The notes beneath the pieces are model-generated. The model was not told the origin of the DNA. It searched no databases and saw only the letters and a list, made by a program, of their open reading frames with translations. Both the position numbers and the translations under genes were made by a program. A stretch of DNA of 40,965 nucleotides, from the IMG/VR virus record IMGVR_UViG_3300036760_000062, positions 1 to 40,965 of that record. One strand, written 5' to 3'. The stretch is from a virus. Shown here one piece after another: positions 4,555-33,142 of this stretch. Position 1 is the first letter of the stretch, and the number at the start of each line of letters is the position of its first letter.

Positions 4555-5282
4555 TTCTCACTCCTCTTATAATCAAACTCTTTTAACTTGTTAATAATCA
4601 ACGGCAAGTCAGCTGGTTCACCGTTCTCAAGCCCGCGAAACTGGCTTTTTGTCAGATACTGCTTGCTAGGCCCAAAGCGAACCCAACGCTTACCTGTCTT
4701 CTCGAACACTTCCAAGTGCCCCACTACGTCTACTAGACCGCAGACTCTAAAGCAGGAAGCCTTACCCACCATAGGGCAGGTCTTTGTAACCACAGTTCCC
4801 TCTGAACTCTGGATCTCATACGGGTATTCCCACGCATTGAAGATAACGTTGATACCCATATCCACCAAGTCTCGCCAGTTATGGAACCACTCCATCATTT
4901 TATAGGCCGTATCTCCTCTCTCCCTAAGTTCAGGGAATTCTTTCTTTCTGGTGTCTGTGTAGTGAATGGTCAACTGGTCTACAAGCTCGCTTACGTTGTC
5001 CACCACTACGTTCTTAATGCCAGGTAATTCCTTAGTCCTAATCATGCGGTAGATATCTGACATGACCTTCTCTAAGCCTACGTTGAGCGTGGCTGCACGA
5101 ACGTTGAAGACAAGGTGTCCAGTGCCCAATAGAGGCCCAAGCCCACATTCTGTGTTTATAATCAAAGTTTCACCTACAGGCAAAGTTGTTGACATTGTCG
5201 TTTTCCCTACGCCAGGGTCCCCATAAATGATAAAAGAGATACCTCGGTCTAATTTATCTGGTGATTTGTTTAGGTGTTCCAT
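4551..5282 (-). CDS. RecA-like P-loop ATPase, Sak4/AAA_24 type recombinase
   Basis: This is a 243-residue protein with Walker A GDPGVGKTT at residues 21-29 and a Walker B strand, NVVVDNVSEL (Asp95). It has the short single-domain RecA-core architecture typical of phage Sak4 single-strand-annealing/ATPase proteins (family AAA_24). The middle region KKEFPELRERGDTAYKMMEW and the following GINVIFNAWE strand fit that family. It lies between a Cas4-like nuclease and an SSB-like protein, the usual recombination cassette. The start follows AAAAGGAGAAAG. Its role is homologous recombination or annealing at phage DNA ends. It may also fill an early replication role; that part is inference. Confidence 0.8.
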   Translation of the reverse strand: MEHLNKSPDKLDRGISFIIYGDPGVGKTTMSTTLPVGETLIINTECGLGPLLGTGHLVFNVRAATLNVGLEKVMSDIYRMIRTKELPGIKNVVVDNVSELVDQLTIHYTDTRKKEFPELRERGDTAYKMMEWFHNWRDLVDMGINVIFNAWEYPYEIQSSEGTVVTKTCPMVGKASCFRVCGLVDVVGHLEVFEKTGKRWVRFGPSKQYLTKSQFRGLENGEPADLPLIINKLKEFDYKRSEK

Positions 5283-5329
5283 CTTTCTCCTTTTGGGTAC
5301 CCTTTCGGGTCACCTGGTGTATAAGCCAT
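5270..5329 (-). CDS. 19-residue micro-ORF MAYTPGDPKGYPKGERWNT
   Basis: ATG at 5329 has a strong Shine-Dalgarno (GGGAGGTTTTAA) and the frame ends 13 nt inside the ATPase gene, so ribosomes finishing it are delivered to the ATPase start. The start site is better than that of several longer genes. It is a leader peptide or coupling ORF, or possibly a functional microprotein; the PKG-rich sequence resembles the tail of the basic protein at 2449-2625. Confidence 0.45.
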   Translation of the reverse strand: MAYTPGDPKGYPKGERWNT

Positions 5330-5464
5330 TTAAAACCTCCCTGATTTACGTAGTTTCTCTTGCTCTACTTTTAGAGCAGCGATTTCTTTGGTTAACTCCT
5401 TCAACGCATCGAGAACTCCCCCGATGTCCTTCTTCAACTCTTCTAATGTGTTATCCTTTACCAA
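5330..5464 (-). CDS. 44-residue coiled-coil microprotein (TTG start)
   Basis: The frame starts TTG at 5464, eight bases after AAGGAGG. It is almost entirely helix: LEELKKDIGGVLDALKELTK, then EIAALKVEQEKLRK, with leucines and isoleucines in heptad spacing. Its stop abuts the ATG of the 19-residue ORF. It is probably an oligomerising small protein of the recombination module; an analogue of small phage recombination mediators is inference only. Confidence 0.6.
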   Translation of the reverse strand: MVKDNTLEELKKDIGGVLDALKELTKEIAALKVEQEKLRKSGRF

Positions 5465-5503
5465 CTGAACCACCTCCTTCTAAGTTAATGTCTATCTTAA
5501 AAA

Positions 5504-6382
5504 CTATCCTTTGTTAACCGTTGGCTTCTTCTCGAAGTACAGGTCAAGAGTCAGGGGATCTGGCTCTTTGGTGAAACATATCTTTCTAAATGGGCATTCG
5601 CTGTTAAAGTTCCAGCACTGGTCGGGGTTGCGTGGCCATGAGACAAGGTCAATCCTCGTCTGTAGCTCAGCTAGTGAAGAGATTAAATCCTTCTCGAATA
5701 GCTCAATAGCCTCTGGGCTTCGGTAAGAGTAGTGCCTCTTAAAGTATTCAGAAGGTCTCTCCTTGTAGTCGTTGATAATCCTAGAGCCGAACTGGTCAAT
5801 CGTCTCGTTCCTGCCCTTCCTTAAAAGAGGCTTCTTAACAAAGTCGTAGATAATGCCCTGCACAGGATAGGCTAATTTCTGCATAGCCCACACGTAGGCA
5901 GTACCTTGAGAGGCGTTGAGACTGCGCTTCTCGAACTGCTCGAAGGACATGGACGTAGTCTTTAGCTCTCGTATCCAGAGCTTCCCGTCCTTCTCGACGA
6001 GCCCATCAATCTTCCCAACGAACACTATGTCTTTACCGATAGGAATTCTGAACTCCTTTTCAGCTTGAATAGATGCGAACGCAGAAAGATTCTTAGGATA
6101 GTAAATCCACATACCGAGCAGGGTGTTCTTAACGTTGACAAGGTCTTCCGATTCTTCGGGGCTAGCCTTGGCTATTTCCTCGTCGATAGTAACAAGTATA
6201 TAATTAAGAACATCGTCGGCAGTGAAGCCTTTGTAGTGCATATCAAATGCTTGGTGAAGGATTGAGCCGAGGGAGAGGTGGTGTGACTTCTTGAAAGGGG
6301 TGAGGCCGTGAATGTAGTGCCACTCATACTTCTTTGGGCAGGCCCTTAGAATACTGAGAGAATTATTAGATACCTCGAGCAT
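5504..6382 (-). CDS. Cas4/RecB-like PD-(D/E)XK exonuclease with Fe-S type cysteines
   Basis: I chose ATG at 6382 (MLEVSNNSLSILRACPKKYE), where the family normally begins; an in-frame ATG 17 codons upstream lies fully inside the preceding microgene. Numbered from 6382, the motifs are GSILH (His43), GKID (Asp126), ELK (Glu139, Lys141) and QGTAYVWA, the H...D...ExK...QxxxY order of the PDDEXK_1 family. Cys15 plus a C-terminal C-x6-C-x5-C (256, 263, 269) match the four-cysteine [4Fe-4S] staple of AddB/Cas4-type nucleases. Next to the Sak4-like ATPase and SSB it would resect DNA ends for phage recombination. Confidence 0.85.
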   Translation of the reverse strand: MLEVSNNSLSILRACPKKYEWHYIHGLTPFKKSHHLSLGSILHQAFDMHYKGFTADDVLNYILVTIDEEIAKASPEESEDLVNVKNTLLGMWIYYPKNLSAFASIQAEKEFRIPIGKDIVFVGKIDGLVEKDGKLWIRELKTTSMSFEQFEKRSLNASQGTAYVWAMQKLAYPVQGIIYDFVKKPLLRKGRNETIDQFGSRIINDYKERPSEYFKRHYSYRSPEAIELFEKDLISSLAELQTRIDLVSWPRNPDQCWNFNSECPFRKICFTKEPDPLTLDLYFEKKPTVNKG

Positions 6383-6814: not shown

Positions 6815-6897
6815 TAGTACCTCGAGTGGACCGGACAGAGCTTGTGAGATAATTTCTTGCATCCGCAACATACGGGGATATTATCTATTAGTCGCAT
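6814..6897 (-). CDS. 27-residue Cys/His microprotein
   Basis: ATG at 6897 is joined to the upstream stop as TGATG behind CAGGAGGGG, and its stop joins the next start as TAATG. The peptide MRLIDNIPVCCGCKKLSHKL ends CPVHSRY. C-C-x-C plus C-x2-H gives a plausible mini zinc site. The perfect chaining on both sides and a strong Shine-Dalgarno make translation likely. Confidence 0.55.
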   Translation of the reverse strand: MRLIDNIPVCCGCKKLSHKLCPVHSRY

Positions 6898-7229
6898 CAC
6901 CCCTCCTGTTCATAGAGCTTTTGAATGGCTTGGGCAAACCACATAATTCCAGGTTCAAAAAATTCTTTTGTTTTTAAATCTCTCTTTGCAACATCGGGCA
7001 TATCATCCCATTTTTTCTTAGCCTTATAAATAGCCTTTGCTATATCCTTTATCTCCACCCTCTTAACTGGTTTTTGGGAGAAGTGTGATACAGCCTTCCA
7101 AGCAATTTCTTTAACATAAAAATCTTGTAAATTCATATATTCTGGGTTGCTTAAAATTATTTCAAATATTTTGTTTTTAAAATCTTCCTCGTTTACTCCC
7201 ACCATCCCCTTATTGCCTTCCTGAATCAT
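6897..7229 (-). CDS. Hypothetical early protein, 110 residues
   Basis: ATG at 7229 follows TTAAGGAGACCT. The protein is helical and basic: residues 15-35 (DFKNKIFEIILSNPEYMNLQ) precede a lysine-rich stretch (AKAIYKAKKKWDDMPDVAKR) and a Trp/Phe-rich end (FFEPGIMWFAQAIQKLYEQE). I do not recognise it. It lies in the cluster of small early genes between the promoter and the recombination module, where host-takeover and anti-defence genes are common; that assignment is positional only. Confidence 0.75.
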   Translation of the reverse strand: MIQEGNKGMVGVNEEDFKNKIFEIILSNPEYMNLQDFYVKEIAWKAVSHFSQKPVKRVEIKDIAKAIYKAKKKWDDMPDVAKRDLKTKEFFEPGIMWFAQAIQKLYEQEG

Positions 7230-7241
7230 AGGTCTCCTTAA

Positions 7242-7403
7242 TTACCTGCTCCATAATAGTCTAATAATCCCTATATCCATACAAGCTGAAGCACCCACGC
7301 AGAATAAAAAACAATAAGCAAATACAGCCTTTGTAGAATCCGACATAGTATCGAAAGGTTCTGTATTCTTGCTAAATAAATATAGTGTAATTGCGGTTAT
7401 CAC
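7242..7403 (-). CDS. 53-residue membrane protein, two hydrophobic segments
   Basis: GTG at 7403 overlaps the previous TGA as GTGA, with AAGGGGGTAAA in front. Segment one is ITAITLYLF and segment two is AVFAYCFLFCVGASACMDIG, separated by a polar loop (SKNTEPFDTMSD). It ends RLLWSR. It could be a small inner-membrane effector of early infection; its function is unknown. It fills what would otherwise look like an empty 170-nt gap. Confidence 0.55.
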   Translation of the reverse strand: MITAITLYLFSKNTEPFDTMSDSTKAVFAYCFLFCVGASACMDIGIIRLLWSR

Positions 7404-7714
7404 TTTACCCCCTTAATTACCTGCTCTAACATTAAAAACGGTTCTTCAAATTCCCATAACGCCCAACCATCGGGAGAGAATGCGTGCCTTCTGTTTATAT
7501 GATGAAACTTCAACTTTCCATCATAAATATAAAAATTAGTGTATCTTTCGGGACATTCTTCTTTAGTCATAGCATCATAGACTTTATTCTCATCGTTCCA
7601 TTTTTTACTTACCCTGTTAGCATCTTCGATACTTTTGCAAGTTTCGGTCAATAACTTCTTAATTTCTTCCCTTGTTCTTTCTTCAACCGAACCAAAACCC
7701 AAGATTATTCCCAT
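7400..7714 (-). CDS. Hypothetical early protein, 104 residues
   Basis: I use ATG at 7714 (MGIILGFGSVEERTREEIKK); a GTG one codon earlier is also possible. AGGGGGTAAAGT precedes. A helical N-terminal half with TCKSIEDANRVSKKWNDEN is followed by a beta-like half (NFYIYDGKLKFHHINRRHAF) and an acidic aromatic segment (WALWEFEEPFLMLEQV). I do not recognise the family. Its stop is shared with the GTG of the next gene. Confidence 0.75.
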   Translation of the reverse strand: MGIILGFGSVEERTREEIKKLLTETCKSIEDANRVSKKWNDENKVYDAMTKEECPERYTNFYIYDGKLKFHHINRRHAFSPDGWALWEFEEPFLMLEQVIKGVK

Positions 7715-30313: not shown

Positions 30314-30739
30314 CTAACCTTTTAAGTCAGGTGGTTTAAAACCACCCAGGTTAATCTTATCAACCCAACTTTTTAAGTCGTAGATCGAAAGATTTTGTTT
30401 AATTCTGTTTATAATATTGCAACATAGAACGATGTTGCCATCTACATACCCTAACTCAGGAATTATTCTATCTACAGTAAACGCATGATGGTCATTGTCA
30501 AGGTAACCCTTCAGTTTCATTGGTTCATCAGTATAGAAACAACGACCACCCTGTTTTACCCAAAGCGACTGGAGGAAATCGCTTAATTCTCGAGTTTCTT
30601 TGAATCCGATGGGTGAGCTTCCTCTCCTACCCTTTCGTAAGTCACGTAAGATAGTATAAGAACGCTGGTAAAAGATATAACGAGGGTCTGATAGCCACTT
30701 CTGGTATCGTTCCATATTCGTTCTATCCTTCCATCCCAT
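30314..30739 (-). CDS. Free-standing HNH homing endonuclease
   Basis: 141 residues. A helical basic N-terminus (MGWKDRTNMERYQKWLSDPR) is followed by the nuclease core: GGRCFYTDEPMKLKG, HAFTVDRIIPELGYVDGNIV, CNIINRIKQNLS. 'C..t..pm...(x)n..vDRi....GY..gNiv..C..iN..K' is the HNH layout of phage endonucleases. Unlike its two neighbours it is not in a group I intron: no P/Q/R/S core elements flank it. Its Shine-Dalgarno GGGAGG is in the 3' arm of a strong hairpin (30743-30783), so translation is likely throttled on long mRNAs. A 17-nt palindrome (GGTGGTTTTAAACCACC) lies near its end. Confidence 0.8.
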   Translation of the reverse strand: MGWKDRTNMERYQKWLSDPRYIFYQRSYTILRDLRKGRRGSSPIGFKETRELSDFLQSLWVKQGGRCFYTDEPMKLKGYLDNDHHAFTVDRIIPELGYVDGNIVLCCNIINRIKQNLSIYDLKSWVDKINLGGFKPPDLKG

Positions 30740-30810: not shown

Positions 30811-30901
30811 TTAAGCAACATTATGTCCGTACAACCAGCTCCAGTCACTGAAACCATAGCTGTATCTTGTATAGACAGACCATTTGCTGATGTCACCATA
30901 T
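30811..30901 (-). CDS. Major capsid protein, exon 3 (C-terminus)
   Basis: Codes for the end of the capsid: YGDISKWSVYTRYSYGFSDW then SWLYGHNVA and TAA. This 'YxRYSxGfSDWrW.yG' end is the normal C-terminus of Mu gpT-like capsid proteins and is missing from the frame of exon 2. I place the junction after G30902 because it keeps the frame (CT|A, Leu); a position five or six bases later is the main alternative. Joined product with exons 1 and 2: 306 residues. Confidence 0.75.
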
Positions 30902-31533
30902 CTGAGCTATTTCTTCTCAGGGTGGACTATACCTTCATCCCTCACGGGAGCAGATATTATAGTCTCTGGACCTTCACTAAAGCTCTTGAGTGATTTTAAT
31001 TGTTCAAAGGCAATAGGTAAATACTCCTGCCTACCCCTTTGCTGTTTTAAAATAACACAAGTTCTCCAAATGGCATATTCTCTTGCCTTCTTGGCTCGAA
31101 GCGGACAAACCTCAAGAACTTCAATAATCTTGAGTAAATCCTTAACATTGTCTATCTGATAAGAAACCATAGGGTTTCTATCAATGTTATTGTGGAAGTA
31201 AAGTTTACCCACACCAAGAAACTTCTGTATCTGGAGTAAGATGGGCATATCATCTGCCCTTAAATGAATATTGAACCTCGGATAATACATAGGAGCCAAG
31301 TGTTTATGTTGGGTATGTTTGTGTAATCCAAATGAACCTTCCCCGTCGATAAGCCCTGCTAAGTAATTCCCGAAGTTAATATCCATTATTCCACCTGCTC
31401 TAATGCTTGGCTGCTGATTGTCCAATCTTCAACATTTTCACTGTTCGCAATATATTTTGCCTCTGCGATGAGTAGTTGAAGCTCTAAGGAGTTTCCAGCA
31501 ATTTCATCTGTTTCCTTCTCACCGTTACCGATG
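30902..31533 (-). ncRNA. Group I intron 2 in the capsid gene
   Basis: About 632 nt. P1: exon TCACT pairs with GGTGA, with U-G at the splice site and a 10-nt loop. Conserved core: P AAATTGCTGGAAACTCC (31504-31488), Q AATCAGCAGCCAAGC (31419-31405), R AAGGTCCAGAGACTA (up to 30974), S GAAGGTATAGTCC (30936-30924). P9 CTGAG/CTCAG follows S. The LAGLIDADG ORF lies between Q and R and runs into R and S. P10 pairing is weak, so the 3' site has an uncertainty of a few bases. Confidence 0.85.
30907..31386 (-). CDS. LAGLIDADG homing endonuclease in intron 2
   Basis: ATG at 31386 (MDINFGNYLAGLIDGEGSFG) with the single LAGLIDADG helix YLAGLIDGEGSF at residues about 8-19; about 159 residues, the size of a homodimeric single-motif enzyme (I-CreI class). 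Later segments FNIHLRADDMPILLQIQKFL and VSYQIDNVKDLLKIIEVLEV fit the family fold. In-frame codons upstream of 31386 are the intron Q element, so the later start is preferred. The last residues (GPETIISAPVRDEGIV) are encoded by the R and S elements. Role: cleave intronless alleles at the exon 2/3 junction. Confidence 0.85.
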   Translation of the reverse strand: MDINFGNYLAGLIDGEGSFGLHKHTQHKHLAPMYYPRFNIHLRADDMPILLQIQKFLGVGKLYFHNNIDRNPMVSYQIDNVKDLLKIIEVLEVCPLRAKKAREYAIWRTCVILKQQRGRQEYLPIAFEQLKSLKSFSEGPETIISAPVRDEGIVHPEKK

Positions 31534-32318
31534 AGTGACCCTACAATTAAGGTATCGAAGTCTTTGTCCTTATTGAACTCTGTGGGGACTCTTTGGAACC
31601 ACTTCAGATACATCTTCATCATTTTGCTATCAATCATGAACCAGTTATTAGTATCCGTTAAATAATCCCAAACAATAATCTGGTATTTACCCTTTTTAAA
31701 GTTAGGATTATTCTCTGCGGTATCTAGCTTACCAGATGCATTCACGATTTCCCAAGCTGTCTCTTCCAGATTCGGTGGAACCAGCAAAGTGTCACCACGC
31801 GCTACACTGAGATTGTCCGTTTCATCTGTGAACTGTCTCATAAGTAAACGTGTGGCTTCAACTGCTGTGGAAGATAAAGCTGTGGTCCCTGAGTTACCTA
31901 CGGTTGTAGCTGTTCCTACAAACGTATGAGCTGTACTACAGAGGGCTAAACTATCGCCACCTGTAAAGATGGAAGTACCGAAGGCTGAATTAAAAACAGA
32001 CGATCCGTGTTTTTCCATTGTACGTTTAGTAACCAGAGATAATTGAGCAGGTCGTTTATTGATAATGGAATACAAATCATCGTCAACAAGCTTCCTTTCA
32101 ATCTTCATACCCTTCACCCACTCTTTATGAGTGTATGAAGTTCTGTATTGCTGCTTGAAATCATCGTAAGCGATGGTGCCGTCAAACTCAGATAAGTCAC
32201 CAGTTCCGCCGATTCCAAGGTCATACTCTACTGCTTTGCTGGATTTCTCTATGCCGAACAGATTCTCCCTTTGACCTTCAGCTAGACCATACTCGTCCAT
32301 GAAAATCTTCCTTAAACC
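31534..32318 (-). CDS. Major capsid protein, exon 2 (main part)
   Basis: It encodes most of a Mu gpT-like major head protein: GLRKIFMDEYGLAEGQRENL, AVEYDLGIGGTGDLSEFDGT, RTSYTHKEWVKGMKIERKLV (then DDDLY), and near the end VWDYLTDTNNWFMIDSKMMK, MYLKWFQRVPTEFNKDKDFD. The family normally starts with a short N-terminal segment ('...LLDP/APGLRK') and ends '...RYSxGFSDWRW'; neither is in this frame but both are supplied by exons 1 and 3. Without splicing, the frame ends at 31386 in intron sequence (TISSQALEQVE). Total 45 + 785 + 91 nt = 921 nt, 306 residues. It forms the icosahedral shell; the portal and scaffold genes are upstream. Splicing is needed for a complete capsid. Confidence 0.85.
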
Positions 32319-33097
32319 CAATTGTTGCAACTACTTATGCAACTTGGACTATATCATCTCTTACGAGCGGGACGCTCTTGCCTGTTATTAAGGACGGTGT
32401 ACCGTCCTCAGGTAGTCTCTGCACCTTCCGAGTCTCTACTCGGCTTGGCTCAGGATTGTCCTTGAGGAGTTTCCCTGAATTCATCCCGTTTTCTAAAGAG
32501 TGTAGGTTAGCATGACAAGCACCGCAAAGACACATTCCATTACTAATGTCGTGAATTAAATGCGGATATGTACTTTTTGGAAGAATATGATGGGCCTCTA
32601 AATCACTCGTAGCACCACAAGACTTACAACAGCCAACGCTCTTAATAGCTTTAGCCCATGCTTTATATCGTGGATCTCGTTTTATTACAGCCATCTTTTT
32701 TTCATATTCTCTTGTCTTGCCACCTTGCCAATTCCAATGAGTAGAACCTTTTTTAGCCATCTTCCTGTTTGCTTTAGTAATGTTTTCCAAATGTTCTTTA
32801 GAAAACTTTATTCCATTACGAGCCTCAGCCCGACTTCTTTTAGGAATATTAAATCTTACTAAAGCAACGTAAATTGTAGAAGGAACGCAACCAAGCTCTT
32901 TAGCTATTTGAACTGTTGTCTTTTTTAAATCAAGATACTGTTCTCTTAACCAATCACTTGTAAGCTCAACATGTTTCGTAGACGACAACCTGACCTTCTC
33001 TTTTTGCTCAGGAGTCCACTCTCTATGCCCACGCTTATCGTTAATTCTATTTTTAAGATTATTTCCCATTGATTCCTCTTAAGCCCCAGTCTTATTT
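32319..33097 (-). ncRNA. Group I intron 1 in the capsid gene
   Basis: About 779 nt. P1: exon ...GGACCCT pairs with GGGGCTT (U-G at the splice site, 10-nt loop). P10: exon 2 GGTTT pairs with AGACT just before the guide, fixing the 3' site after AATTG. Core: AGGGAAACTCC (P), AATCCTGAGCCAAG (Q, near 32441-32460), AAGGTGCAGAGACTA (R, 32411-32427), GATGATATAGTCC (S, 32358-32346). Extra hairpins GGACGGT/ACCGTCC and GAGCG/CGCTC between R and S suggest a group IA type with P7.1/P7.2. P9 GTTGCA/TGCAAC precedes the 3' end. Confidence 0.9.
32335..33069 (-). CDS. HNH homing endonuclease in intron 1
   Basis: 244 residues, ATG at 33069 behind AAGAGGAATCA. Residues about 40-80 form an AsiA-like/helix-turn-helix DNA-binding unit (LKKTTVQIAKELGCVPSTIY). 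The nuclease core is SVGCCKSCGATSDLEAHHIL, PHLIHDISNGMCLCGACHAN, with two CxxC pairs binding zinc and the H-N-H residues. NWQGGKTREYEKKMAVIKRD is the usual linker. From about residue 200 (MNSGKLLKDNPEPSRVETRK) the protein is translated from the intron P, Q, R and S elements, so ribosomes and ribozyme folding compete for the same RNA. Role: intron homing into capsid genes lacking the intron. Confidence 0.9.
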   Translation of the reverse strand: MGNNLKNRINDKRGHREWTPEQKEKVRLSSTKHVELTSDWLREQYLDLKKTTVQIAKELGCVPSTIYVALVRFNIPKRSRAEARNGIKFSKEHLENITKANRKMAKKGSTHWNWQGGKTREYEKKMAVIKRDPRYKAWAKAIKSVGCCKSCGATSDLEAHHILPKSTYPHLIHDISNGMCLCGACHANLHSLENGMNSGKLLKDNPEPSRVETRKVQRLPEDGTPSLITGKSVPLVRDDIVQVA

Positions 33098-33142
33098 AGG
33101 GTCCAACAAATACCCAAACCCTTCACTCGTTACAATACCCAT
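33098..33142 (-). CDS. Major capsid protein, exon 1 (N-terminus, 15 residues)
   Basis: ATG at 33142 behind AATAGGAGGTTTTAA. It encodes MGIVTSEGFGYLLDP, the N-terminal segment that Mu gpT-like capsids have before GLRK. The unspliced frame adds one Lys and stops (CCT AAA TAA), so the stop is the first in-frame codon pair of the intron. It joins GGT TTA AGG (GLR) at 32318. No other function for this tiny, well-initiated frame fits as well. Confidence 0.85.

Follow-up and report, generated by a model that had tools for sequence, protein, structure and literature searches.

Is a phage major capsid gene that lies in three pieces, with an endonuclease reading frame in each gap, a single gene interrupted by mobile introns, and where exactly would its pieces be joined? 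This question is raised by the virus record IMGVR_UViG_3300036760_000062, which was analysed over its full 40,965 bases (the window) and which, read on the minus strand, carries terminase, portal, capsid, and further genes. With a probability of about 0.94, we consider the capsid gene to be split by two mobile group I introns that were acquired separately and whose homing endonucleases are unrelated; splicing, DNA cutting, and homing are predicted activities. This was also the sequence-only reading of the locus, and it is the best-supported one; intronless homologues align across both junctions.

Capsid gene identity and exon junctions

The middle capsid ORF (31386-32330, minus strand; 314 aa when TTG is taken as the start) matches the profiles Phage_capsid_4 (PF25209, 45.7 bits, Pfam cut-off 27) and Mu-like gpT (PF10124, 31.7 bits, cut-off 20.1). 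Both cut-offs are exceeded and uninterrupted 298-aa homologues were found, which places the gene among the gpT/Phage_capsid_4 capsids. Initial homologue searches used a 307-aa joined protein based on the junctions first proposed. Among isolated phages they gave only relatives of at most 32% identity, and in the whole record they gave no second capsid copy. A host search of genome contigs gave a single distant match (37%), in a MAG of candidate division TA06.

Exons were placed by spliced alignment against 22 uninterrupted relatives with a reference length of 298 residues, and all pairs of cut points that keep the total length were scored with no rules on the bases. Exon 1 (33098-33142, minus strand) holds 15 codons, MGIVTSEGFGYLLDP, and runs directly into AAA TAA in the unspliced DNA; the sequence-only reading had described it in this way, and ORF reading bears it out. 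Exon 2 (31550-32318, minus strand), which carries the PF25209 and PF10124 matches, extends from codon 16 to the first base of codon 272, and exon 3 (30811-30893, minus strand) takes up the other two bases of codon 272 and continues through codon 298 to the stop. The top junctions were 33098/32318, with which a 1-nt shift ties, and 31550/30893. In this unconstrained scoring, T is the last exon base and G the last intron base at both.

The joined exons encode 298 residues, the length found in most intronless relatives, and are up to 86% identical to the intronless L004. The exon 1/exon 2 junction LDP/GLRKIF is conserved in intronless relatives, and the exon 2/exon 3 junction DFDT/YISKW matches them as well. 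The alignment to homologues that had been suggested as a check bore out the joined protein at both junctions, and the pattern named as contrary to it, a homologue that fits only the exon 2 frame, did not appear. Several details had to be revised. Exon 3 does encode the gpT C-terminus, but homology starts it at 30893, 8 nt from the proposed position near 30901; exon 2 ends at 31550 rather than near 31531, 19 nt away; and the product has 298 residues instead of 306. Joining at 31531/30901 was rejected, as it gives 307 residues, nine of them extra and found in no homologue.

Two group I introns

Intron 1 (32319-33097, minus strand, 779 nt) lies between codons 15 and 16. Its core (32325-32557) gives a full-length match to Rfam RF00028 of 48.1 bits (E 3e-10 over a 5-kb stretch, E 2.5e-9 over the whole window), 1.9 bits below the gathering score of 50, which is a curator's cut-off and not a biological feature. 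The codon-16 introns of L065, L066, and L072 score 60-66 bits, above gathering. Helices were placed by reading the sequence: P1 is CCCU/AAAUAAGACU/GGGG, with a U-G pair and a 10-nt loop, P3 is CGGGAUG/CGUCCCG, and P4, P6a, P7, P7.1-P7.1a, P8, and P9 are also present. A P7.1-P7.1a extension is typical of group IA, and intron 1 is group IA-like.

Intron 2 (30894-31549, minus strand, 656 nt) interrupts codon 272 in phase 1, with its junction set by homology. It has neither P7.1 nor P7.2, and therefore belongs to a different subgroup from intron 1. Its RF00028 match is partial (18 bits, below gathering), probably because an endonuclease ORF splits P6. The fold was examined in an alignment of five introns at the identical site (window, L039, L064, L065, and L072) after removal of the ORFs. 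A P1-P8 structure of 39 pairs in 8 helices has 99.5% of its cells paired across the five introns, and 14 of the 39 pairs show double-sided changes, against 6.1 in shuffled and 1-4 in slid controls. Covariation is found in P1-P6 and P8, while P7 is invariant.

P1 of intron 2 (31538-31553, minus strand) pairs ACCU with GGGU around UAAUUGUA, an 8-nt loop whose outer two pairs form a covarying P1 extension; the U-G pair at the 5' splice site is invariant in all five introns. P2 (31518-31535, minus strand; CTCATCG-GTAA-CGGTGAG) has compensatory changes in five of its seven pairs. The 3' core (30921-30964, minus strand) comprises the P7 5' strand, the P3 3' strand, P8, and the P7 3' strand. By eye in the alignment, P10 with the 3' exon has 3 bp in the window and 5 bp in L039, L065, and L064. 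Group I cores had been proposed for both introns. Both stand, the first by RF00028 and the second by covariation with only a partial Rfam match. A P1 with a U-G pair and a 10-nt loop had been ascribed to each. This holds for intron 1; in intron 2 the real P1 lies elsewhere with its shorter loop, and the helix previously called P1 is most likely P2.

Endonuclease genes

Both introns contain an intact endonuclease ORF of the predicted family. The HNH ORF of intron 1 (32335-33069, minus strand, 244 aa) exceeds the PF01844 cut-off (27.5 against 21.4 bits) and matches phrog_8446 (E 1.2e-18). In its C-terminal part the frame extends across the ribozyme core, and the ORF is under purifying selection in comparison with its relatives. 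The LAGLIDADG ORF of intron 2 (30907-31386, minus strand, 159 aa) lies in the P6 loop and matches PF00961 with 65.2 bits (E 1.1e-17; cut-off 23.1). It is 77-85% identical to the ORFs of four same-site relatives; dN/dS is 0.08-0.14 against these relatives and about 0.06-0.14 for the LAGLIDADG ORFs, which indicates purifying selection.

Each endonuclease has its dedicated site. In a pattern scan of the viral collection, LAGLIDADG relatives were found only at the codon-272 capsid site. Of the HNH relatives, the closest five occur at codons 16/17, and all others share at most 47% identity, over part of the protein. We infer separate acquisition of the two introns, whose ribozymes, ORF positions, and endonucleases all differ.

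Intron distribution and probable mobility

Mapped introns occur in 18 of 58 distinct capsid sequences, about one third, in a set that was found by similarity, contains some near-duplicates, and does not give population frequencies; L070 (contig edge) and L073 (poor alignment) were omitted from this tally. The mapped sites are codons 12, 16, 17 (two positions, one base apart), 95/96, 234, 242, and 272. L023, tallied as intron-free, has a further intron near codon 292, as do L053 and L064. This amounts to about nine positions in one gene, with at most three introns per gene, as in L072 (codons 16, 95, and 272). The codon 16/17 and 95 sites are among the most conserved capsid residues. At codons 12, 16, 17, 242, and 292 the group I core is confirmed by Rfam, and the LAGLIDADG introns at codons 95 and 234 were identified from joined proteins. 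Eleven loci with no mapped capsid intron (139 kb) gave zero RF00028 matches at gathering.

The nearest capsid relatives of the window, L001-L004, are intronless, and the genes that share its intron sites fall in other parts of the tree. Seven changes on the tree are needed for the eight carriers at codon 12, and four for the five at codon 272. Such a patchy distribution fits homing. The codon-272 introns are 73-83% identical to each other, against 61-69% for their host genes, and the introns are the more similar in 10 of 10 pairs. No clear co-conversion of exon flanks was seen; the carriers at both sites fall within the range of intronless relatives. There is thus no sign of recent homing, and the idea of a recent event marked by co-converted flanks was rejected.

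At neighbouring sites, ribozymes and endonucleases show different relationships. The codon-16 HNH protein of the window shares 50-66% identity with its counterparts in L063 (codon 17), L065, L066, and L072. Its ribozyme core gives local scores of 74 and 88 with the ORF-less codon-17 introns of L058 and L059, and of 45-50 with the codon-16 cores of L065, L066, and L072. The latter three score 105-116 with the codon-12 core of L059. Ribozyme and endonuclease have apparently been swapped between sites only a few bases apart.

Further arrangements were observed in the relatives. An internal capsid exon of 15 nt lies between the codon-12 and codon-17 introns of L059 (5764-5778) and L063 (4575-4589). 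The codon-17 intron of L063 (4590-5999) has a single 446-aa ORF with HNH and LAGLIDADG_2 domains (E 6.9e-8 and 3.7e-24) that runs through the ribozyme core. In L065, the codon-16 HNH ORF (5352-5972) has lost its HNH motif by an in-frame deletion; the endonuclease is decaying while the intron is kept.

LAGLIDADG group I introns near codon 292, with ends placed by homology alone, were found in L064 (about 1309-1907), L023 (about 6869-7443), and L053 (about 5143-5774). At their own 5' end they re-encode the last six capsid residues and the stop (IMGHEVS*, IFGSEVA*, and IFGSQVS* in L064, L023, and L053), and the true 3' exons lie downstream (YGHQVS*, YGHEVA*, and YGQNVS*, respectively). Because the capsid end and stop are restored, unspliced RNA would still yield a full-length capsid protein. 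L066 has a LAGLIDADG remnant at this place. L013, L046, and L058 have LAGLIDADG ORFs after the capsid stop, with neither a second capsid end nor a P7-like motif.

Related HNH-like ORFs (endonuclease VII/HNH PHROGs) are located 3' of the capsid gene in the window (30314-30739) and in L004 (6977-7342). They seem to occupy the ribosome-binding site and start of the next gene, which begins with ATT/ATC in the window or TTG in L004 instead of ATG. A third group I intron around the ORF of the window was considered and rejected, as the region has no Rfam match.

Splicing, competing explanations, and the open frame of intron 2

In the proposed mechanism, each intron would fold as a group I ribozyme within the transcript and excise itself through two guanosine-dependent transesterifications, with the 5' splice site at the U-G pair of P1 and the 3' splice site past the terminal G. 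Ligation of the three exons would give one message and a 298-residue capsid protein. The HNH (intron 1) and LAGLIDADG (intron 2) enzymes would cut capsid alleles of co-infecting phages at sites that lack the intron, and the intron would be copied in as the cut allele is repaired.

A gene in pieces may also function with no splicing at all, if its fragments are translated separately and then assemble. The reductase subunit of phage Aeh1 is a precedent for such an arrangement (cited in PMC7344957), and the middle capsid ORF, at 314 aa from its TTG, is long enough to invite the comparison. Exon 1, with only 15 codons, and exon 3, which has no start codon, are poor candidates for separate translation, both ribozyme folds are conserved, and joining restores exactly the protein of the homologues; we therefore regard this explanation as very improbable. 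The introns may instead be dead and the gene a decaying or defective copy, a concern that attaches to a metagenomic record known as sequence alone. It is hardly credible here, since purifying selection acts on the three exons and on both endonuclease ORFs, none of which is disrupted, compensatory changes keep the pairings, and the record has no other capsid copy. Two active introns that are spliced from a functional capsid message remain the preferred explanation.

Translation of unspliced RNA could take place in addition to splicing. The capsid frame continues stop-free into intron 2 (31386-31549, minus strand) for 54 codons from the junction codon to a TAA that overlaps the LAGLIDADG ATG (TAATG), and AGGUGG lies upstream of this ATG. 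The frame is open for 38-54 codons in all five codon-272 introns, including L064, and ends in the TAATG overlap or 0-1 nt upstream of the LAGLIDADG ATG. In the window, L039, L065, and L072 it has no internal stop, and the other frames of the same stretch have 4-7. In L056 the codon-234 intron likewise ends in TAATG, as does the codon-16 intron in L065. An early in-frame stop is common in bacterial group I introns (PMC3984707), and the HNH introns of this set all stop the capsid frame within 1-6 codons. The long open frame of intron 2, conserved in five relatives, is unusual, and with no early stop, ribosomes could enter the ribozyme core.

Ribosomes that leave exon 2 may read on into the 5' part of intron 2 and stop at the LAGLIDADG start. 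Synthesis of the endonuclease would then be coupled to translation of the capsid and in competition with splicing. The pN/pS of the open stretch (0.51, where the other frames give 0.60 and 1.03) is a weak coding signal that is confounded by RNA structure, and the five sequences are related and not independent; we consider this coupling a serious possibility, somewhat short of even odds. A stronger version is unlikely, namely that intron 2 is a translation-splicing switch, its frame open through P1-P5 so that ribosomes on unspliced RNA block splicing. It is similarly doubtful that a capsid variant with about 53 intron-encoded residues is made while ribosomes are delivered to the LAGLIDADG start.

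Relation to known systems and implications

Group I introns in phage capsid genes are already known, both single (PMC3706429) and multiple (PMC7886860). In a crAss-like phage of the Zeta group (cMAG OLRF01000054), the major capsid gene is likewise split repeatedly by group I introns with endonuclease-type domains (PMC7886860). With this precedent, and with introns in about one third of the distinct capsid genes of the clade, the description of the two-intron gene as uncommon was overstated. OLRF01000054 belongs to large gut phages, whereas the present record is 41 kb with a gpT/Phage_capsid_4-type capsid, its introns are mapped to exact sites, and intronless alleles are known. The capsid intron of mycobacteriophage LittleE also bears an endonuclease, and its splicing was demonstrated by RT-PCR and N-terminal sequencing (PMC3706429); here, splicing is predicted. 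Unlike the window, LittleE has one intron, with the endonuclease ORF on the opposite strand, in an HK97 gp5-like capsid gene with a delta domain. Several group I introns per gene also occur in Twort, where one gene has three introns and exon skipping takes place (cited in PMC11878797), and in DNA polymerase and terminase genes of Bastillevirinae (two or three; PMC11878797). Exon skipping may occur in the present gene too. Those cases concern other genes, and PMC11878797 mentions no capsid-gene intron. The clade is set apart by its unusually dense intron sites, at about nine positions in one gene.

Gene callers would likely report this locus as a truncated capsid and two endonucleases, while two splicing events are required for the true capsid protein. 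Within the clade, the gene forms a natural series from zero to three introns, and neighbouring sites combine related endonucleases with different ribozymes; here intron gain, loss, and module exchange can be tracked in one essential gene. The open frame through intron 2 makes directly testable the old question of how a ribosome and a group I ribozyme share one RNA. If intron 2 does act as a switch, capsid translation would set the ratio of capsid to endonuclease.
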